DNA of 64,000 nucleotides, from the NCBI RefSeq assembly GCF_026914305.1, contig NZ_CP113866.1, forward strand, positions 248,001-312,000. Reading direction: 5' to 3'. Numbering within the stretch: position 1 is the stretch's first letter; each line of letters opens with the position of its first letter. Of this stretch, positions 3,532 to 54,507 are shown piece after piece. Under the pieces are notes generated by a model. That model worked only from the letters and a program-made list of their open reading frames with translations, searched no databases and had not been told where the DNA came from. The stretch is from Caldicellulosiruptor acetigenus. Its GTDB lineage: Bacteria > Bacillota > Thermoanaerobacteria > Caldicellulosiruptorales > Caldicellulosiruptoraceae. Made by a program: the position numbers and the translations under genes.

Positions 3532-4950
3532 ATGAAAATTAACAAAAAGCTTTTGATAAAGATTGTAGCCATTGTGGTTGCACTTTCTATCTTTGTTGCG
3601 GTGCCTGTGTATTCCCAGTTTTTTATAATCTCAACTGATTTTCCTACAGACAAGCAGATGGATTATATCAAAAAGGTGTTGCAGGTTGCAAAGGTGTATC
3701 ACATAGGAAAATACAGCTATGACGAGCTAATTGACATGATGTTTACAGGGCTTTTCAAGAGCCTTGACAAGTATTCAGAGTACATGAAACCACAGCAGGC
3801 TCAGGACTTTACCCAGAGCGTGAGCGGAGAGTTTTCGGGCATAGGCATCCAGATAGAAAAACAGGAGGACTACATAGTTGTTGTTGGAGTTTTTGACGGA
3901 ACACCTGCAAAGGAAGCGGGCTTAAAGGTTGGCGACAAAATCATTGCAGCAGATGGAAAGTCCCTGGTTGGGAAGACAACAGATGATGCTGTTAAGCTCA
4001 TTCGCGGGCAGGAAGGCACAACTGTTGTGATTGACATCTTAAGAGATGGCAAGACTTACAGATTTTCTATTGTGAGAAGAAAGATAAAGATTCCTGTTGT
4101 GGAGTATAAGGTGCTTGATAATAACATTGGCTACATTAAACTTACGCAGTTCACACAAGGGTGTTCAAATGATGTCAAGAAAGCTCTTGATGAGTTTGAC
4201 AAAAAAGGTATCAAGAACATTATTTTTGATATTCGAAACAACCCCGGCGGACTTTTGGATGAGGTTGTAAAGATATGTGAATATTTTGTGCCAGAAGGAC
4301 CAATTGTAACAATTGAGTACAACACCTTTAAAGATGAGTACAAATCAAAGAACAAGAATGCAAAGTACAGACTTGCAGTTTTGACAAACGAATCGAGTGC
4401 TTCTGCGTCAGAGATTTTTGCCCAGGCTATAAAGGACAGAAAAGTAGGAGTTGTGATTGGTACAAAGACATATGGAAAAGGGACTGTGCAGACCTTGGTT
4501 AGTCTTCCTGAGACAGACACAAAAAAAGGGTATGTAGCGAAAGTGACGGTTGCAAAGTACAAGTCACCGTCTGGATATTATGTTGAAGGAAAAGGTGTTG
4601 TGCCAGACATAGAGGTAAAAGATGATTCACTTGCACAATTTGGACCAGACAAGATTTTACCACTCACTGCAACTAAGAGATATAAAAAAGGTGATATGGA
4701 TTTAGAAGTTTTAGCGGCACAACAAAGGCTTTATTATTTGGGTTATTTACAATTTTGGACAGGGAAAATGGATGATACTACAATTGAGGCAATCAAAAAG
4801 TTTCAAGGTGACAACAGGCTTTATCAATCAGGTGAGCTGAATATTATTACTCAAAAAAAGATTATAAGCAAATTTAATGAGTTTGTAAAATCCAAGTATG
4901 TAGACAAACAGCTTGAGCGGGCAATCCAGTATTTCAAAACTGGAAAATAA
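3532..4950 (+). CDS. ctpA: C-terminal processing protease, S41 family, with PDZ and peptidoglycan-binding domain
   Basis: The 472-residue protein has an N-terminal membrane anchor (residues 7-28), a PDZ domain (about 95-180, GLKVGDKI loop), an S41 protease domain (190-365) and a C-terminal PG_binding_1 domain (about 390-445). The catalytic serine lies in SSASASE (Ser291) and the general-base lysine in TYGKG (Lys316), 25 residues apart as in the Prc/CtpA family. Enzymes of this type cut non-polar C-termini of extracytoplasmic proteins. ATG start with a GGAG site just upstream. The gene follows the SLH gene by 74 bases and ends at a hairpin terminator, so it may process envelope proteins; the substrate is unknown. 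Confidence 0.93.
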   Translation: MKINKKLLIKIVAIVVALSIFVAVPVYSQFFIISTDFPTDKQMDYIKKVLQVAKVYHIGKYSYDELIDMMFTGLFKSLDKYSEYMKPQQAQDFTQSVSGEFSGIGIQIEKQEDYIVVVGVFDGTPAKEAGLKVGDKIIAADGKSLVGKTTDDAVKLIRGQEGTTVVIDILRDGKTYRFSIVRRKIKIPVVEYKVLDNNIGYIKLTQFTQGCSNDVKKALDEFDKKGIKNIIFDIRNNPGGLLDEVVKICEYFVPEGPIVTIEYNTFKDEYKSKNKNAKYRLAVLTNESSASASEIFAQAIKDRKVGVVIGTKTYGKGTVQTLVSLPETDTKKGYVAKVTVAKYKSPSGYYVEGKGVVPDIEVKDDSLAQFGPDKILPLTATKRYKKGDMDLEVLAAQQRLYYLGYLQFWTGKMDDTTIEAIKKFQGDNRLYQSGELNIITQKKIISKFNEFVKSKYVDKQLERAIQYFKTGK

Positions 4951-4958
4951 AAAATTGC

Positions 4959-5006
4959 AAGGCTTTTGCCGGCAGTTCAAAAGTGAGTGCGGCGAAAGCC
5001 TTTTTT
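4959..5006 (+). terminator. Rho-independent terminator after ctpA
   Basis: Arms AAGGCTTTTGCCG and CGGCGAAAGCCTT pair with one mismatch and are followed by TTTTTT. It separates the envelope genes from mbl. Confidence 0.85.
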
Positions 5007-5115
5007 ATTTTCTAAAAAATTGTATATAAAATTCATTGAAAATATGCAAATTAAAAATTAAAATATATTTAAGGTATATTTACAAAAAAGAAAAATAGAA
5101 AGGATAGGTCTCAAT

Positions 5116-8190: not shown

Positions 8191-8292
8191 GGTTTTATTG
8201 TTGAAAATGAAAAACAATAGGTGTAAAATATATTTAAAAACACATAAAAACAAAGAAATTTTCTTAATCCCAATTTTATAACCGTTTTCAAA

Positions 8293-43426: not shown

Positions 43427-43506
<80 letters not shown>

Positions 43507-43553: not shown

Positions 43554-43575
43554 TACAGCTACCCTACAGCTACCC
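43554..43575 (+). repeat. Arm-type direct repeats near attL
   Basis: TACAGCTACCC occurs twice in tandem (43554-43564, 43565-43575). The 8-mer ACAGCTAC recurs three times near the other end. Probable binding sites for the integrase N-terminal arm domain. Confidence 0.7.
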
Positions 43576-43594: not shown

Positions 43595-43629
43595 GGGTAA
43601 CTACTCCACCTCAGGAGTGGTTACCCTTT
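43595..43629 (-). terminator. Integrase gene terminator at the left end
   Basis: GGGTAACTACTCC (43595-43607) pairs with GGAGTGGTTACCC (43614-43626) with one wobble; on the reverse strand it is followed by TAATTTTTT. It overlaps the last codons of the integrase gene. Confidence 0.8.
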
Positions 43630-44711
43630 ATGTTTATCTGCTCAAATAGATGATTTAACTTCATTGCTGCAGCTTTCTTTATCTCTGGCATGACGTGAGA
43701 ATAGATATTAAGAGTTGTTGAGATGTCATTATGACCTAAGAGCTCTTGTACAACCTTTGGATGTTCATTGGCTTCTAACAATCTTGTTGCGTACGTGTGT
43801 CTTAAAGCATGAAAGTTTATATCAAGATTTGCCTTTTCAATTATGCGATAAAATACTCTTAAAAAATTTCTTGGTTCAATCGGAGTGCCAAGCTCTGTTG
43901 CAAAGACTAAATTGTTGTCTTCATATAAGCTTCCAGCTTGGAGCCTTTCTTCAAGTTGTCTTTTGCGATGTTCTTTTAACTCTTCTAAAATAACAGGTGG
44001 TACAGGAATTGTTCTTATACCTGCTGCTGTTTTGGGTTCTTGGAATGCTAACATCGTTTTTGTTGGCAGGTTCTTGTCGTATGTTTTTATTCTTCTGAGT
44101 GACCTTTTAATGGTTATTGTTCCCTCTTTAAGATTTACACAATCCCACTTTAAAGCAAGAAGCTCACCAAGCCTAACTCCACTTGCAAGAGCCAGCAAGA
44201 AGGCTGGTCTTAGTCTTTCACCTTCCAAGGCAGCTATAAACCTTTGCTGCTCTTGCAAGGTCAAGACTCTTATTTCATTTTTGGTCTTTGTTTTTGGCAG
44301 TGTTGTTGCTTCACTTACATTCCTTACTACTAACCCATTTTTTAAAGCCTGGTCTAAGGCTGAGTGCAATATAACGTGAATGTGTTTTATAGTAGACAAA
44401 GAAAGTCCATTTCCATATTTGGAGTTGTACAATGCTTGCAAGTGTTCAGGTCTTAAATCCTTGAGTTTATAATGTCCAATAGCTGGGACTATATGATTGT
44501 TGATAAGGCTTTCATACACTCCACTTTTTAAATCGTTCAATGCTTTTGCTATCTTGTCGGCAACTTCCTGTCTTGTCTTGCCATAAAAATACTGTCGCTT
44601 TTGCTTGCCGCTTTCATCTCTTCCTATGGTGATTTGACCGCACCAAAGCCCATCCTTCCTTCTGTATATACTGCCTTCATTATTCCCTCTCTTTTTGCTC
44701 TTGGCAGGCAT
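43611..44711 (-). CDS. int: Tyrosine recombinase integrase with shortened core-binding domain
   Basis: The 366-residue protein has an N-terminal arm-binding (AP2-like) region, GSIYRRKDGLWCGQITIG, and a full catalytic domain: Arg in ASGVRLGELLAL, HxLRHTYATR, LGHNDISTT and the tyrosine in NIYSHV. Between KSGVY and ESLINNHIVPAIG about 30-35 residues usual for the first helices of the core-binding domain are missing, so activity may be impaired. Start ATG 44711 after AAAGAGGTG; that site lies in the Uma2 gene, whose stop is one base upstream (coupled translation). It sits next to attL as expected. Confidence 0.9.
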   Translation of the reverse strand: MPAKSKKRGNNEGSIYRRKDGLWCGQITIGRDESGKQKRQYFYGKTRQEVADKIAKALNDLKSGVYESLINNHIVPAIGHYKLKDLRPEHLQALYNSKYGNGLSLSTIKHIHVILHSALDQALKNGLVVRNVSEATTLPKTKTKNEIRVLTLQEQQRFIAALEGERLRPAFLLALASGVRLGELLALKWDCVNLKEGTITIKRSLRRIKTYDKNLPTKTMLAFQEPKTAAGIRTIPVPPVILEELKEHRKRQLEERLQAGSLYEDNNLVFATELGTPIEPRNFLRVFYRIIEKANLDINFHALRHTYATRLLEANEHPKVVQELLGHNDISTTLNIYSHVMPEIKKAAAMKLNHLFEQINIKGNHS

Positions 44712-44712
44712 T

Positions 44713-45294
44713 TTATAACACCTCTTTGATTGGCGCAAAGTCTATAACAAGGTCTTCAAAGATACTAACTTTGACCTTGTCATTGAATGTGTAAACTTCT
44801 GGCGGCAAGTAATCTTCATTGTTTTTGAGTCTGTATACAAAGATTGTTTGGTTGTTAGGGTTGACAATCCAATACTCTTTGACTTTAAACTGATTATACA
44901 GGTTTAGCTTTCTTACGTAGTCGTGAGATGGATTATATTCTGACACAACCTCAATTATCATCTCAGGAGCTCCAAAACAACCTCTTTCAGTAAGTTTTCT
45001 CTTATCACATATGATTGAAATATCAGGCTGAACAACGTTTTTTGCTTGCTTTTCATCCTGCCCTTCTTCAACAAGAACAACATCAAATGGAGCTGTATAA
45101 ACTTTGCAGGGCTTGTTGTTTTGCTTAATATAATTACCAATACTTAGTGTAAGTTCAAAAATAATTTCTTGGTGCACTCTTGAAGGTGCAGGGCTCATAT
45201 CATAAATAACACCATCAATGAGCTCAACCCTTGCGTCTTCTGGAAATTCAAGATAGTCTGCATATGTGTAAATCTTAGGCATTCTTGCTTCCAT
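44713..45294 (-). CDS. Uma2 family (DUF820) nuclease-like protein
   Basis: The 193-residue protein has the PD-(D/E)XK fold of Uma2: VELIDGVIYDM, VVQPDISIICD (metal Asp) and IEVVSEYNPSHDYVRKLNLYNQFKVKEYWIV (Glu and Lys). The family is abundant in cyanobacteria and thermophiles; its role is unsettled. ATG 45294 overlaps the end of the Xre gene by 20 bases, and the stop is next to the integrase start, so the three genes form one transcript. A second intact copy and a fragment lie outside the element. Confidence 0.85.
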   Translation of the reverse strand: MEARMPKIYTYADYLEFPEDARVELIDGVIYDMSPAPSRVHQEIIFELTLSIGNYIKQNNKPCKVYTAPFDVVLVEEGQDEKQAKNVVQPDISIICDKRKLTERGCFGAPEMIIEVVSEYNPSHDYVRKLNLYNQFKVKEYWIVNPNNQTIFVYRLKNNEDYLPPEVYTFNDKVKVSIFEDLVIDFAPIKEVL

Positions 45295-46698: not shown

Positions 46699-48618
46699 AT
46701 GGAAGAAATATCTAATATGCCAAATTCAAGCTTGTATTCCTTAGAAGCAGAAGAAGCAGTTGTCGGTGCAATGATAATCAATCAAGATATAATTCAGGAA
46801 GTTGAAGAAGTCCTATGCAAGGAAGATTTTTACAATGCTAATCTAAGTATAATTTTTAAAATAATTTTAAGCCTTTACAAAAACAAGTATCCTGTAGATA
46901 TTATCACAGTTACAGATGAACTAAAAAAGAGGAATTTTTTAGAAGGTGTTGGTGGGCAGGAGTATTTAACTAATCTTATATTTAGTGTACCTACAACAGC
47001 TAACGTTATGTATTACGCAGAGATTGTGAAACAAAAATCAATCTTAAGAAAAGTGACAAAGAAAAGTGAACTTCTTTTGAACACCTTACAAACAGGCGAC
47101 ATCCAGCAAGCAAAACATCTTATAGAAGATTTGGCGAATGAAACGAATTTTATTGAAAGCAGAAACTTTGAAGATGTCAAGGTAATGAGCATTTCTGAAG
47201 CTGCAGAAAATGATAGGCGACAAGGAACACATCTATGGCTTGTACAAAATTTCATACCCGAAAAAGGCCTTGTAATTTTCTCTGGAAGACCCAAACATGG
47301 CAAAACTACAGTGCTGTACAAGATTATTTCTGATGTTGTGTCAGGTAGACCTTGTTTTGGACGAGCTACTAGAAATGCCAGAGTTTTATGGCTGACTTTC
47401 GAAAATTCTTATTCTGCAGTTGAAGAAGGACTTTTGAAACATAATTGCACAAACCTTGACAATATTCTCACAATTGAACTATCAGAACAAAAAACAATGT
47501 TGAACGTTGAAATGCTGGTAAGAACAGCCAAAAAACATGGCTGCAACTTGATTATTTTAGAACCAATGACGGTTTTGAACGAATTAGCTAAACTTGGGCA
47601 AACAAACAAACTCTCTTATGAAGCTATCTATGCTACATTAATTCCAATCATGCAGACTATGAAAAAGGAAGGGCTTTGCTTTATTGGGGTAAGACACAGC
47701 AGTAAGGGGAAAGGAACATTGAACGATATTACGGATGTTATTGACGCACCGATGGGCTCCACAGCTTTTTCAGCAGCTGCTGACGCGCTAATTGGTTTTG
47801 GTTTACCGCCAAACGCTGAAAAAAGTACACAGCGTAGGATAATGGCTATTGGTCGAGATGTCCAACTTGATTATTTGTTGGAGTTTGATACTGAAAAAGG
47901 CTGCTATATAGAGTTGGGAGAGGTATCTATTGAAAAACAATTATCAGAACTTGAAAGCAGGGTTTATAAATATGTAAAAAACAATACAGCAGTTACTCCA
48001 AAGGAGATTGCTAAGAATACAGGATTAAAAGAAGGAAGTGTTAGAAGCGCTTTACATCGATTAGTCGAAAAAGGATTAGTTATAAAAATCTCAAGCTATT
48101 ATTCATTGCCAGCTAATAATAACCACGAAAATAATAATAATTCTGCAACACTTGCAACGAATGCAACACTTGCAACGTTTGCAACATTTGCAACAGATAC
48201 AACAGTGGTAAAAGAAAGTAACCTGTTGCAAGGCGTTGCAGACAGTTTGCAACGCACAGAAAACGAGATTTTACTAGAATTTGAGGAGGATAAAACATAT
48301 AGCGTTGCAACTGTTGCAAAAGACGAATTACAAAATAGTTTCTTTACATTATCAAAAGTTGACTTTTCCCTACCACAGATGGAGGTGGATAAGATTAATA
48401 GAAGAATTTACATTGACTCATTCAAGAACCTAACAACAAGGGTTTACAAAGATGTTCTCAAAAATTTTTCATGTGAAAAATGCCAGCAACCTTTAGAGTA
48501 CTCAGAATCCATTCACATGGGAGTCTGTCCTAAGTGTCATCAACTTTATTCCCTCATTCCAAGAAAGGCAGCTGATGTTGAAGGGGGACGCTTTTTTGTA
48601 GAACTTAAAGAACAATAA
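46699..48618 (+). CDS. DnaB-N/RepA-like replicative helicase with zinc ribbon
   Basis: The 639-residue protein joins a DnaB N-terminal domain (about 12-115: EAEEAVVGAMIINQD), a RecA-like AAA_25 ATPase (Walker A SGRPKHGKTT at 195-204; Walker B NLIILEP near 284), a winged helix (about 418-465), a low-complexity linker of Ala-Thr repeats (about 482-505) and a C-terminal four-cysteine zinc ribbon (Cys592, 595, 610, 613). It likely loads at or unwinds the element's origin. The linker is encoded by a nine-base DNA repeat that looks like iterons. ATG start; no strong ribosome binding site is evident. Confidence 0.85.
   Translation: MEEISNMPNSSLYSLEAEEAVVGAMIINQDIIQEVEEVLCKEDFYNANLSIIFKIILSLYKNKYPVDIITVTDELKKRNFLEGVGGQEYLTNLIFSVPTTANVMYYAEIVKQKSILRKVTKKSELLLNTLQTGDIQQAKHLIEDLANETNFIESRNFEDVKVMSISEAAENDRRQGTHLWLVQNFIPEKGLVIFSGRPKHGKTTVLYKIISDVVSGRPCFGRATRNARVLWLTFENSYSAVEEGLLKHNCTNLDNILTIELSEQKTMLNVEMLVRTAKKHGCNLIILEPMTVLNELAKLGQTNKLSYEAIYATLIPIMQTMKKEGLCFIGVRHSSKGKGTLNDITDVIDAPMGSTAFSAAADALIGFGLPPNAEKSTQRRIMAIGRDVQLDYLLEFDTEKGCYIELGEVSIEKQLSELESRVYKYVKNNTAVTPKEIAKNTGLKEGSVRSALHRLVEKGLVIKISSYYSLPANNNHENNNNSATLATNATLATFATFATDTTVVKESNLLQGVADSLQRTENEILLEFEEDKTYSVATVAKDELQNSFFTLSKVDFSLPQMEVDKINRRIYIDSFKNLTTRVYKDVLKNFSCEKCQQPLEYSESIHMGVCPKCHQLYSLIPRKAADVEGGRFFVELKEQ
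48144..48206 (+). repeat. Iteron-like array TGCAACNNN in the helicase gene
   Basis: Six exact TGCAAC words start at 48144, 48153, 48162, 48171, 48180 and 48189, each nine bases apart; a seventh unit (48198) is degenerate. Further TTGCAA-type words occur at about 48225-48320 without regular spacing. See findings for the origin hypothesis. Confidence 0.85.
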
Positions 48619-50198: not shown

Positions 50199-51134
50199 AT
50201 GGAACAGACAGTTACTGCACAGCTTGACAAGGCACAAAGGCAGCTTCTAATTGCCGACAACCTAAAGCTTGTGTATCATATAGCGAATAAGTTTATGCCA
50301 TGTCCTAAGGGTTACATGTATGAAGTTGATGACCTAATTAGTGAGGGTTACTTTGGTTTGATTGTGGCAGCTCAGAATTACAAACCAGTGCTTGGAACAC
50401 CATTTGTAAGTTATGCGTGCAAGGTGATTGAAAGCAGAATAAAAAGAAGCTTGCCAAAGTACAAATTATCTTCTTCCATTTCTTTGGACAGTCCAGTATC
50501 AAAAGAACCAGAAGAAGATACATCAACAATTGGAGATGTAGTCTCAGATGGTTATTCAGTCGAAAGAGAAGTAATCAGAAAGGATACTCTACAAAAGCTT
50601 CAAAGGTATTTTGATACCTTGACCGATGAGGAAAAAGAGAGGGTTTTATACTACATCTCCACAGGAAAAAATCCACCTGCCAGCGATAAGGTGTTCAGAA
50701 AAGCAAGAAGGAAGATAATAGCTAAGATGAGACAAGAACAGTTTGAGGCGGACCTTGACGATTTGACAGTATTCATATCCTGCCCAGCGGTGCATGTAGC
50801 AACTGGCAATGGTTACTTTTCATCTCCAGTTGAAACTGCAGTTATTGCAAGAGAGGAGAAAAGAAAACAGCTTGAAGTTTTGTCTTATATTCCACAATTG
50901 GACAAGCTAAGAATGTTAAAACAGCAAGGCGAACAGGATAGAATGAGACTTCTTGCTGCTAAATGGGAAGTGGAAGAGTTTATTGAAAGGCACTGGGATA
51001 ACCTTACAGTCTACAATGTTAGACTTCTCAAAGACTATTTTGTTTTTTGTCTTTCCCATCTGTCCATGGTGCAAAAGTATGGCAGCAAGTACAGAGAAAC
51101 TGTCAAAAGAATTGTAAAAAAGCTAATGGAATAA
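50199..51134 (+). CDS. Sigma-70-like protein with region 2 only
   Basis: The 311-residue protein has a sigma-70 region 2 (about residues 15-90: NLKLVYHIANKF ... EVDDLISEGYFGLIVAAQNY ... FVSYACKVIESRIKRSL), the core-binding and -10 recognising part. A region 4 for -35 recognition is not apparent; a KVFRKARRKIIAKM basic segment near 170 is the only candidate. It could be an element-specific sigma factor, a late-gene regulator or an anti-host factor. ATG start after AAAGGAG. No anti-sigma gene nearby. Confidence 0.7.
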   Translation: MEQTVTAQLDKAQRQLLIADNLKLVYHIANKFMPCPKGYMYEVDDLISEGYFGLIVAAQNYKPVLGTPFVSYACKVIESRIKRSLPKYKLSSSISLDSPVSKEPEEDTSTIGDVVSDGYSVEREVIRKDTLQKLQRYFDTLTDEEKERVLYYISTGKNPPASDKVFRKARRKIIAKMRQEQFEADLDDLTVFISCPAVHVATGNGYFSSPVETAVIAREEKRKQLEVLSYIPQLDKLRMLKQQGEQDRMRLLAAKWEVEEFIERHWDNLTVYNVRLLKDYFVFCLSHLSMVQKYGSKYRETVKRIVKKLME

Positions 51135-51880: not shown

Positions 51881-51953
51881 AAATAAAAACATATCAAAAA
51901 ATCTTTACCTCTCAGGTTAATAAAAATTGACTTTTAGGAGGACATATTATATA

Positions 51954-52301
51954 ATGGAAGTGAGGTATAAAACAAAAAAGCTTAAAAAGATTTGTGAAAA
52001 TTTTCAGCTGGCACAAAAAGAGTTTGGGCAAGATATAGCTAAAAAGCTTTTTCAAAGGTTAAATGAGCTAAAGGCTGCCAAATCTCTTTACGACATATCA
52101 CGTCTGCCAGCTACAGGTTTTCATAAATTAGAAGGTTCCCGAAAAGGACAATATGCTGTGTATTTAGTACATCCATTTAGGTTAGTTTTCAAACCAATTA
52201 CAATTTCCGAAAATCAAACACAAGATGAAATAGATTTATCGAAAATAGTCATAATTCAGATTGAAGAGGTGATAGATTATCATGGGAAGGAAAAGAGATA
52301 A
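51954..52301 (+). CDS. higB: HigB/RelE-type toxin
   Basis: The 115-residue protein resembles RelE-superfamily HigB toxins: KKICENFQLAQKEFGQDIAKKLFQRLNELKAA (helices), then beta strands with GFHKLEGSRKGQYAVYLVHPFRLVF. Such toxins cut mRNA on the ribosome. Start ATG 51954 after TAGGAGG (51935-51941); a longer frame from 51927 includes that site. It overlaps the antitoxin gene by 20 bases, toxin first, the usual higBA order. Confidence 0.82.
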   Translation: MEVRYKTKKLKKICENFQLAQKEFGQDIAKKLFQRLNELKAAKSLYDISRLPATGFHKLEGSRKGQYAVYLVHPFRLVFKPITISENQTQDEIDLSKIVIIQIEEVIDYHGKEKR

Positions 52302-53367
52302 AAAATTAGAAGAATGGATAGTTATTCCACCTGGTGAAACCATAAAAGAAAATCTTGAATACTTAGGTATGACACAAGCTGAGTTTGCTCAGAGGATGGG
52401 GCTTTCAGAAAAAACGGTAAGTGAAATAATTAATGGGATTGCTCCAATCACTTACGAAACTGCTCTTAAGTTAGAAAATGTAATAGGTGCTTCTGCAGAG
52501 TTTTGGATGAACTTAGAAGCTAATTACCAACTTGCTAAAGCAAGAATAGCTGAAAAACAAAAATTAAAGGATGAAGAAAAAGTATTAAATCAAATCCCTT
52601 ACAATGAAATGTCAAAATACAGATGGGTACCAGAGACGAAAAACAAAGAAGAAAGAATAAAAAATCTTAGAAACTTTTTTGGTGTATCGTCTTTAAACTT
52701 TATCCCTCAAACTTTGGAAGTTTGTTTTCGAAAAACCAATAACGAAAAAACTTCATGTTACGCTTTAGCAGCATGGATTAGGAAAGCTGAAATAGAAGCA
52801 TACAAAATAGAAACAAAACCTTTTGATAAAGAGAAAATTTATCAATTCATACCTGTTATTAAAGAACTCACAAAACATACTTGGGAAGAAATTTACCCAA
52901 AGCTTATAAATATTTGTTCAGAATGTGGAATTGCTCTGGTAACACTTCCACATTTGAAAGGTACGTATGTAAATGGTGCTACAAAGTGGCTTAAAAAAGA
53001 TAAGGTGTTGTTAGCCTTAAGTTATAGATACAAGTTTGCTGATGTTTACTGGTTTTCATTTTTTCACGAATTGGGGCATATATTAAAACATGGTAGAAAA
53101 GAGGTTTTTATTGAAGGTGATGATGAAATTTCAAAAAACGAATTAGAAGAAGAAGCAGATAATTTTGCTGCAAATACACTTATACCTTATAAAGATTATA
53201 AAAAGTTTATTACTGAAAATAAGTTTTTCACAAAAGACAATATAATTGCTTTTGCTAATTCTCTCAATATTCATCCCTGCATTGTAGTAGGAAGATTAAT
53301 GCATGATAAATTGATTAGTTATTCAGACTTTAATGAACTGAGACCAAGAATCAATTTTAAGAGTTAA
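52282..53367 (+). CDS. higA: HigA antitoxin fused to ImmA/IrrE metallopeptidase domain
   Basis: The 361-residue protein has an N-terminal HigA-type helix-turn-helix (about 14-75: PPGETIKENLEYLGMTQAEFAQRMGLSEKTVSEIINGIAP) and a C-terminal ImmA/IrrE domain (about 200-340) with HELGH (262-266) followed by a Glu-rich EEEADNFAANTLIP, the third zinc ligand region. ImmA-type peptidases cleave repressors; fused forms may control their own stability. ATG start after GAAGAGGTG. It neutralises the upstream toxin by analogy with HigBA; this is inferred. Confidence 0.85.
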   Translation: MGRKRDKKLEEWIVIPPGETIKENLEYLGMTQAEFAQRMGLSEKTVSEIINGIAPITYETALKLENVIGASAEFWMNLEANYQLAKARIAEKQKLKDEEKVLNQIPYNEMSKYRWVPETKNKEERIKNLRNFFGVSSLNFIPQTLEVCFRKTNNEKTSCYALAAWIRKAEIEAYKIETKPFDKEKIYQFIPVIKELTKHTWEEIYPKLINICSECGIALVTLPHLKGTYVNGATKWLKKDKVLLALSYRYKFADVYWFSFFHELGHILKHGRKEVFIEGDDEISKNELEEEADNFAANTLIPYKDYKKFITENKFFTKDNIIAFANSLNIHPCIVVGRLMHDKLISYSDFNELRPRINFKS

Positions 53368-53415
53368 AGAAAAAATTAGGAATATATGACTATAACCACA
53401 GCCAAAAATTTTTAT

Positions 53416-53443
53416 ACAGCTACTACAGCTACACTACAGCTAC
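53416..53443 (+). repeat. Arm-type direct repeats near attR
   Basis: ACAGCTAC occurs at 53416-53423, 53425-53432 and 53436-53443, in the same orientation as the pair near attL. Confidence 0.7.
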
Positions 53444-53558: not shown

Positions 53559-53606
53559 CTTCTAATCCGTAGGTCAGGGGTTCGAATCCTCTTGGGCGCG
53601 CCATTT
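53559..53606 (+). repeat. attR, 48-bp direct repeat
   Basis: Exact copy of the tRNA-Arg 3' end including CCA; the 5' half of the tRNA is absent, so no tRNA is made here. Confidence 0.93.
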
Positions 53607-53700: not shown

Positions 53701-54303
53701 TTACAAATATTCCTTTATTTTTGCAAAGTCAATCTCTAAATCATCAAACAAGTTAACTTTTATTTTATCCTTGAAGCTGTACACAGCTGGTGGCAAGTAG
53801 CCCATTGGTTCTTTATAAAGATAAATCAAGATGTATTCTTGATATGGATTTACAATCCAGTATTCTTTAACTTTAAAGCTATTGTAGAGATTCAATTTTC
53901 TAACATAATCATGACAAGGATCATCATCAGATACAATTTCTATTATCGTATCTGGTGCCCCAATAATGCATGCAGGATCTGAAAGTTTTTCCTTATCACA
54001 TACAACCATTATATCAGGTTGGACAACGTTTGTTGAACATTTTAACTCTTGCCCTTCTTTTACAAATACTACATCAACAGGTCCCATGTAAAGGTGACAG
54101 CACTTGTTTTTTGCTTTGAAGTAAGGATGCAGTTGCATCATAATTTCTAAAAGGAGCTTCTGATGAATAGGAGGATTTCCTGAATACTTTATATACACTT
54201 TGCCGTCAATTATCTCAGCTCTTATGTCGTCAGGGAAGTTAAGGTAATCGCCGTAAGTGTAGCAGTTATTTTGATCGAATTTCATGGTTATCGCTTTATG
54301 CAT
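53701..54303 (-). CDS. Uma2 family (DUF820) nuclease-like protein, chromosomal copy
   Basis: About 200 residues with the Uma2 motifs AEIIDGKVYI, VVQPDIMVVCD and IEIVSDDDPCHDYVRKLNLYNSFKVKEYWIV, clearly homologous to the element's Uma2 protein. The start is uncertain: ATGs lie at 54321, 54303 and 54285. A -10-like TATAAT (complement of 54326-54331) sits just before 54321, so 54303 or 54285 is more likely. It stands immediately outside attR, with the old tRNA terminator between them. Confidence 0.8.
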   Translation of the reverse strand: MHKAITMKFDQNNCYTYGDYLNFPDDIRAEIIDGKVYIKYSGNPPIHQKLLLEIMMQLHPYFKAKNKCCHLYMGPVDVVFVKEGQELKCSTNVVQPDIMVVCDKEKLSDPACIIGAPDTIIEIVSDDDPCHDYVRKLNLYNSFKVKEYWIVNPYQEYILIYLYKEPMGYLPPAVYSFKDKIKVNLFDDLEIDFAKIKEYL

Positions 54304-54507
54304 ATTTGGACTTCTTAACATTAATTATACTCTATTTTTCTTAATTTTTATGAAATATTTCCAAAGTTTATGGATTCAAAAATAAATACACCTTTTGACT
54401 TAAAAATTGTATAAATAAGCCTGAAATTAGGCTTCCTATTAGGGTTGTGCCAGCGAAAACCAAGGTATATAAGCTCATCACTTACTTTTTGCACTCACTT
54501 TTCGATT

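Follow-up and report, generated by a model that had tools for sequence, protein, structure and literature searches.

A candidate replication origin within the putative initiator-helicase gene of an integrated Caldicellulosiruptor element

RESULTS AND DISCUSSION

An integrated element and its helicase-like gene

The stretch of DNA analyzed here (64 kb; hereafter, the window) contains an element of 10,100 bp between two copies of a 48-bp repeat, integrated in a tRNA-Arg gene of Caldicellulosiruptor. The main features are the following, in window coordinates.

43459 to 43506, no strand: left attachment repeat (48 bp), at the tRNA-Arg 3' end
43611 to 44738, minus strand: tyrosine integrase gene, at one element end (PF00589, 4.3e-29)
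46699 to 48618, plus strand: putative initiator-helicase gene (DnaB N-terminal domain, AAA_25, winged helix, array-coded linker, C-terminal CxxC/CxxC)
47941 to 48096, plus strand: winged-helix codons (amino acids 415 to 466), proposed reader of the array (Pfam TrmB, 9.8e-08; model)
48081 to 48143, no strand: AT-rich stretch adjoining the array, a candidate unwinding region by its composition
48144 to 48194, plus strand: direct cluster, six TGCAAC words at a 9-bp step, from the repeat search
48225 to 48253, no strand: second cluster, two inverted copies (48225 and 48235) and one direct copy (48247)
48304 to 48319, no strand: third cluster, GTTGCAAC, where a direct and an inverted copy overlap, with a further inverted copy at 48313
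48472 to 48537, plus strand: two CxxC pairs in the C-terminal domain, identified from the sequence itself
53559 to 53606, no strand: right attachment repeat (48 bp)

Pfam matched the product of the 46699-48618 gene to the DnaB N-terminal domain (PF00772, 1.5e-30), to the AAA_25 ATPase domain (PF13481, 6.9e-15) and, after it, to the winged helix, in agreement with an earlier description of this gene as helicase-like made from the letters alone (here, the sequence-only reading). The N-terminal domain is held in common with chromosomal DnaB, whereas the DnaB_C domain scored 16.4 bits in Pfam, under the cut-off of 27; all the NCBIfam DnaB models listed scored under their own cut-offs for this protein. 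The best 50 Foldseek matches listed were all DnaB helicase structures. The AlphaFold model (mean pLDDT of 67.5, pTM of 0.43) is usable at the domain level only; in it the winged helix is formed, with helices and strands, and the array-coded residues 472 to 559 have a pLDDT below 50. From their sequence, the CxxC pairs are possibly a zinc ribbon.

A repeat array in both orientations

TGCAAC occurs on the plus strand at 48144, 48153, 48162, 48171, 48180, and 48189, i.e., six copies at an exact step of 9 bp, just as the sequence-only reading had it. The further, irregular TTGCAA words that it had also noticed were recovered as copies reaching 48319, many of them inverted, an orientation left unmentioned there. 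Inverted copies lie at 48225 to 48231, 48235 to 48240 (six bases), 48304 to 48310, and 48313 to 48319, with later direct copies at 48247 to 48253 and 48305 to 48311. Counted as TTGCAAC/GTTGCAA, nine exact sites, two of them overlapping, fall within 48152 to 48319, where about 0.05 would be expected per 168 bp by simple division of the shuffle mean; the 64 kb as a whole hold 41 such sites versus a shuffle mean of 17.73. The array stretch reaches a both-orientation 7-mer count of 8 (GTTGCAA/TTGCAAC), compared to at most 4 in the other 480-nt windows of the 64 kb (taken at 120-nt steps, those overlapping the array excluded), which makes it the strongest both-orientation repeat within the window. 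In the 2.74-Mb genome, TGCAACNNNTGCAACNNNTGCAAC is found only in the array, with four overlapping matches. The repeats are real and beyond chance. The AT content of 48081 to 48143 is 76%, versus 64% in the preceding part of the gene, while that of the array itself (0.60) is lower than that of the gene (0.64).

When the codons of the array were redrawn from the remainder of the same gene with the peptide kept, none of 200 and none of 300 resamplings reached eight copies, the largest count being 5 in both. All nine alanine codons of the array are GCA, versus 11 of 31 in the rest of the gene, and the array copies occupy three reading phases. That the constraint on the array acts at the DNA level is well supported.

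Survey of AAA_25-winged-helix genes

A hidden Markov model (HMM) of the AAA_25-winged-helix core was built from seven seeds and run on the open reading frames (ORFs) of fetched loci. For each locus we scored a 480-nt segment whose first base lay 30 nt upstream of where the winged-helix match ends, with a threshold of five copies of one 7-mer. Set 1 comprised the distinct proteins with an HMM end of at least 250 among the matches listed (n = 61, the seven seeds included). Set 2 was fetched later with six family seeds and filtered against set 1, leaving HMM and threshold unchanged; requiring an HMM end of at least 295, 450 nt downstream and <90% identity in a 60-nt key retained 121 of 152 (the survey scans covered the best 80 of 189 and the best 80 of 415 matches). 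Neither set is a random sample, since both were drawn from best-scoring or listed matches.

Counting both orientations, at least five copies were present in 35 of the 61 set 1 loci among the matches listed (26 had fewer), compared to 5 of 1,717 control windows from the same loci. Scored in any orientation, at least five copies were present in 36 of 61 among the matches listed, and for none of these 36 did more than 1 of 200 resamplings score as high. A separate control from 24 loci with dnaB-type matches gave 0 of 312 windows at threshold. Set 2, within the best 80 of 189 and best 80 of 415 matches, had 63 of 121 loci at threshold and 58 below it, compared to 48 of 2,735 controls; codon resampling gave 0 of 200 for 62 of these 63 arrays and stood at 5 for the other (L218). 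Under the same scoring, the window gene has a bidirectional 7-mer array in the 450 nt that follow the winged-helix codons (score of 8, 0 of 200 resamplings), and in the array-bearing relatives the array is located directly 3' of these codons. By record title, the array loci include Bacillota relatives, Synergistaceae, Chloroflexi, Spirochaetae, Deltaproteobacteria, Poribacteria, and Vampirovibrio, and, within the Actinomycetota, Kribbella, Nonomuraea, and Pseudonocardia.

In a scan with wider limits, running from where the HMM match ends to 300 nt beyond the ORF, 1 of 7 AAA_25 genes without a winged helix had at least five copies, versus 99 of 184 with one, a comparison suggestive of a tie between array and winged helix, although the seven (nonredundant, several of them fragments) are too few. 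Among six named records, the score was 5 for L329, 4 for both L330 and the Tsukamurella plasmid L334, and 2 for the phages Neferthena (L331), Casserole (L332), and Tolls (L333), in which the HMM match stops before the winged helix; the best window elsewhere in each of the six was 3. One array of the survey has a different appearance: L114 carries, at 4914 to 5064, 13 exact copies of CAGTCGC in a single orientation at 9-bp steps, coding and minisatellite-like, without exact inverted copies.

Step, orientation, and translation

Two loci were excluded from the spacing, hairpin, and orientation counts: L114, whose words share one orientation, and L091, whose palindromic word occurs in overlapping copies. 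Among the matches listed, the 34 scored arrays of set 1 comprised 12 that were entirely coding, 14 entirely noncoding, and 8 mixed; the 62 of set 2 (best 80 of 189 and best 80 of 415 matches) comprised 30 coding, 17 noncoding, and 15 mixed. Between same-orientation neighbors up to 30 bp apart, the 9-bp step accounted for 36 of 62 steps in coding and 37 of 72 in noncoding arrays of set 1 (among the matches listed), and for 84 of 129 and 47 of 103, respectively, in set 2 (best 80 of 189 and best 80 of 415). It is the commonest step in coding and noncoding arrays alike, somewhat sharper where translated. A codon origin of the step is thus disfavored: because 9 bp is commonest in untranslated arrays too, it appears to be a property of the DNA sites and not of codons. 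At least two copies per orientation were found in 28 of 34 arrays of set 1 (among the matches listed) and 52 of 62 of set 2 (best 80 of 189 and best 80 of 415).

These data bear on the simplest alternative, that the array is simply low-complexity coding DNA, with a tripeptide in tandem that slippage has expanded or that selection maintains in the protein. Nine base pairs are three codons, and the L114 array does look like such a repeat. However, the inverted copies lie in other frames, codon resampling never matched the array (0 of 200), untranslated arrays share the step, and the word varies while place and geometry persist. With these points disfavoring a peptide-driven or slippage repeat, we give this alternative hardly any credence.

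Near relatives and the plasmid pATHE01

In another species, a copy with 75% identity (L036) has the same word and the same arrangement of clusters and has gained some words; its array alanine codons are GCA in 11 of 12 cases versus 13 of 29 elsewhere in the gene. Shortly past this array there is an in-frame TAG (8236 to 8238), beyond which the sequence still reads as a CxxC stretch like that of L035; the TAG may represent either decay or a dispensable C terminus. A second copy in the genome of the window (L031, 42% identity) has the word TTGAAAC/GTTTCAA and the peptide ETFETVETYET, L035 has the word TGAACTC/GAGTTCA, and pATHE01 (L032) has TTCACTC/GAGTGAA and the peptide SIHSIHSIH. Among the near relatives, therefore, word and peptide differ while place, step, and double orientation are constant. 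The sequence-only reading had proposed asking whether homologues keep the nine-base period while the peptide varies. They do: the 9-bp DNA repeat is kept while word and peptide vary (ATLATN, ETFETV, SIHSIH, and SVKSVN), and the arrays of many relatives are entirely untranslated, an outcome that speaks for the origin proposed in that reading, which is supported in part. In a codon test restricted to coding sequence, five of the seven seeds stood at 0 of 300. The result was weak for L034 (1 of 300 resamplings as high, and 3 of 200 in the survey resampling) and negative for L037 (297 of 300 as high), in which the array lies mostly beyond the stop codon. In a frameshifted copy (L038) the array is still visible.

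pATHE01 is a natural 8.3-kb plasmid of Caldicellulosiruptor bescii (NC_012036) with its array within a Prim-Pol/AAA_25/winged-helix gene. This is the one of its seven annotated coding sequences (CDSs) with a recognized replication domain (Prim-Pol and AAA_25), in a gene table that may be incomplete; Pfam found no replication domain in the other six annotated CDSs. It resembles the window gene, from the same genus, in having AAA_25, a winged helix, a translated bidirectional array, and a C-terminal CxxC stretch; it differs in its Prim-Pol rather than DnaB N terminus, in its word, and in being a free plasmid. The N-terminal module thus varies: it is the DnaB N-terminal domain in the window (46699 to 47150) and Prim-Pol in pATHE01. 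The AAA_25 domain, the winged helix, and the array are constant. We found no mapped origin for pATHE01 in the literature, with most subscription journals and preprints outside the coverage of the search.

Word, winged helix, and folding

To compare words with protein domains we used loci scoring at least 4, leaving out L114, L091, and L098; 3 of 41 were dropped for too little winged helix, giving 38. In set 1 (38 loci, among the matches listed), word similarity followed winged-helix similarity beyond that of the helicase (partial correlation of 0.17; 1 of 2,000 permutations), and helicase similarity added nothing to word similarity (0.03; 611 of 2,000 permutations as high). In set 2 (62 loci; best 80 of 189 and best 80 of 415 matches), the winged-helix term was 0.16 (1 of 1,000 permutations) and the helicase term was larger (0.33; 0 of 1,000); with the set thinned to 47 loci from the same best 80 of 189 and best 80 of 415 matches, the winged-helix term became marginal (0.085; 50 of 1,000). 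Specificity for the winged helix is therefore not claimed, as it appears in set 1 only and in set 2 the word tracks the helicase more. The covariation agrees with the winged helix as the reader of the word, short of proof.

The spacers of the family are only slightly richer in AT than the gene (mean of +0.05; 21 of 32 loci, among the matches listed). Folding compared with shuffles of the nonword bases gave a mean z of −2.5 across 34 loci among the matches listed, 20 of them below −2, values that are inflated because masking did not extend to words of more than 7 bp or to copies with one mismatch. The same shuffle gave −0.56 for the window array. If the signal were not linear iterons but a stem-loop or cruciform between opposed clusters, like the one suggested for pRN1, it would draw on the extra pairing at those 20 of 34 family loci and on the stem-loop that pRN1 requires 3' of orf904 (PMC4234260, in its accessible text). 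Nevertheless, such a signal is unsupported for the window, where z is only −0.56, its family values carry the inflation just described, and the clusters are tandem repeats at a fixed step, so that we consider it very unlikely as the main signal of the window array; at the family loci with extra pairing, a stem-loop may play a role.

Comparison with known systems

Two points of background frame the comparison: the lambda O protein is not known to be a helicase or to have a helicase domain, and the SaPI Rep/Cch2 helicases are of the AAA+ family. The window helicase, in turn, is an AAA_25 protein in Pfam with DnaB structures among the best 50 Foldseek matches listed, and its likeness to Rep/Cch2 is by description only. 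The analogy with lambda, drawn by the sequence-only reading, is fair for an origin within the initiator gene, as the accessible part of PMC7157519 describes for the iterons in gene O, but the window protein has an AAA_25 helicase domain, and pSK41 and SaPI/SCCmec are closer. As far as the accessible text of PMC5703833 describes pSK41, its origin is inside rep, in the linker-coding region, the Rep winged helix-turn-helix (HTH) binds it, and the linker peptide is dispensable. In the window gene, repeats are seen in the linker-coding part, where binding of the kind described for pSK41 and other RepA_N plasmids is predicted; in contrast, the pSK41 winged HTH is N terminal, the Rep described in that text is without a helicase domain, and RepA_N (PF06970) is absent from the 14 Pfam families matched here at an E value of ≤0.01. 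In SaPI Rep/ori and SCCmec Cch2, the C-terminal domain of the helicase binds short iterons 3' of the gene (PMC7581432, accessible part), which is akin to the C-terminal domain of DNA-binding type and the iteron-like repeats at the 3' side of the window gene, where binding is again predicted; the difference is that the origin described in that part of the source is downstream of the gene and untranslated. In pRN1, orf904 combines an SF3 helicase with a C-terminal winged helix and needs the region 3' of the gene as the origin, according to the accessible text of PMC4234260. This arrangement recalls the window, except that the helicase is SF3 and the origin is a 100-nt stem-loop in which its authors, in that text, found no iterons. 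Modules called Prim-Pol/RepPP appear in a survey of elements from actinomycetes, whose accessible text does not contain the word "iterons" (PMC3218068). By analogy, the window system would work like pSK41 and SaPI/SCCmec, yet we assign it to neither class because it is without a RepA_N domain and SaPI Rep was compared by description only.

The array as a probable origin

Our preferred reading, to which we assign a probability of roughly 0.78, is that 48144 to 48319 is the iteron array of the replication origin of the element, located inside its own initiator-helicase gene and bound by the winged helix. Binding and origin activity are inferred from location, geometry, the natural plasmid relative, and the published analogues. 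The element would excise, and the winged helix, C terminal to the RecA-type helicase domain, would bind the 7-bp words; the direct and inverted clusters could position helicase assemblies in opposed orientations, suggesting a bidirectional start. The AT-rich stretch at 48081 to 48143, or the spacer between clusters, could then melt, and the ATPase ring could be loaded on the opened DNA. Because the ORF runs past the winged helix into the CxxC/CxxC domain, the array would be translated as a disordered linker with a largely incidental peptide.

The array could instead be bound by protein for control (autorepression, copy number, or handcuffing) or partition, with the origin elsewhere in the element. 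Iterons often have a control role too, a site within or past the gene could be a roadblock, and small HTH/RHH proteins of pATHE01 and the element could be regulators. However, in the scored relatives the array lies on the gene's 3' side, far from the promoter, and a Pfam scan of 9 window ORFs and 7 pATHE01 CDSs detected neither ParA nor ParB nor a relaxase family. We consider this alternative unlikely.

For the family as a whole we lean, with less assurance than for the window, toward replicons of many phyla and phage-like contigs that have their origin fixed directly past the winged-helix codons of an AAA_25 helicase, with 9-bp, mostly bidirectional iterons, a word proper to each lineage read by the attached winged helix, and an exchangeable N terminus (DnaB N-terminal domain or Prim-Pol). 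As the array slides into and out of frame, repetitive linkers would be translated origins, and since each lineage has its own word and an attached reader, helicase, specificity domain, and origin would form one traveling cassette. No description of AAA_25-winged-helix genes with such arrays was found in the literature (most subscription journals and preprints being outside coverage), nor one of a family-wide array rule or of an origin sliding through the frame (most subscription journals being outside coverage). If this reading is true, the 3' end of a single gene could be enough to locate the origins of many uncharacterized plasmids, integrative elements, and phage-like contigs. Peptide repeats such as ATLATN, SIHSIH, and SVKSVN would then be explained as DNA sites. 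The survey would also provide about 100 natural winged helices, each paired with a candidate word (35 and 63 scored), for studying a recognition code and incompatibility, as well as possible thermophile origins for vectors. It also advises caution, as low-complexity linkers may not be protein features.

Other features of the element

Short direct repeats based on CTACAGCTAC are found near both attachment sites (43554 to 43575 and 53415 to 53443) and could be integrase arm sites. A protein with a sigma-70 region 2 is common to the element (50199 to 51134) and pATHE01 (L328, 3117 to 4049), with visibly similar translations; from its sequence, the element-borne copy is probably a sigma-like factor, to which we assign no role. 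The element also carries a HigB-like toxin gene (51927 to 52301) beside an HTH/M78-peptidase gene (52282 to 53367), and a Uma2-type nuclease gene (44713 to 45294). Just beyond its right end, the ORF at 53701 to 54321 resembles, by eye, the Uma2 ORF in sequence.
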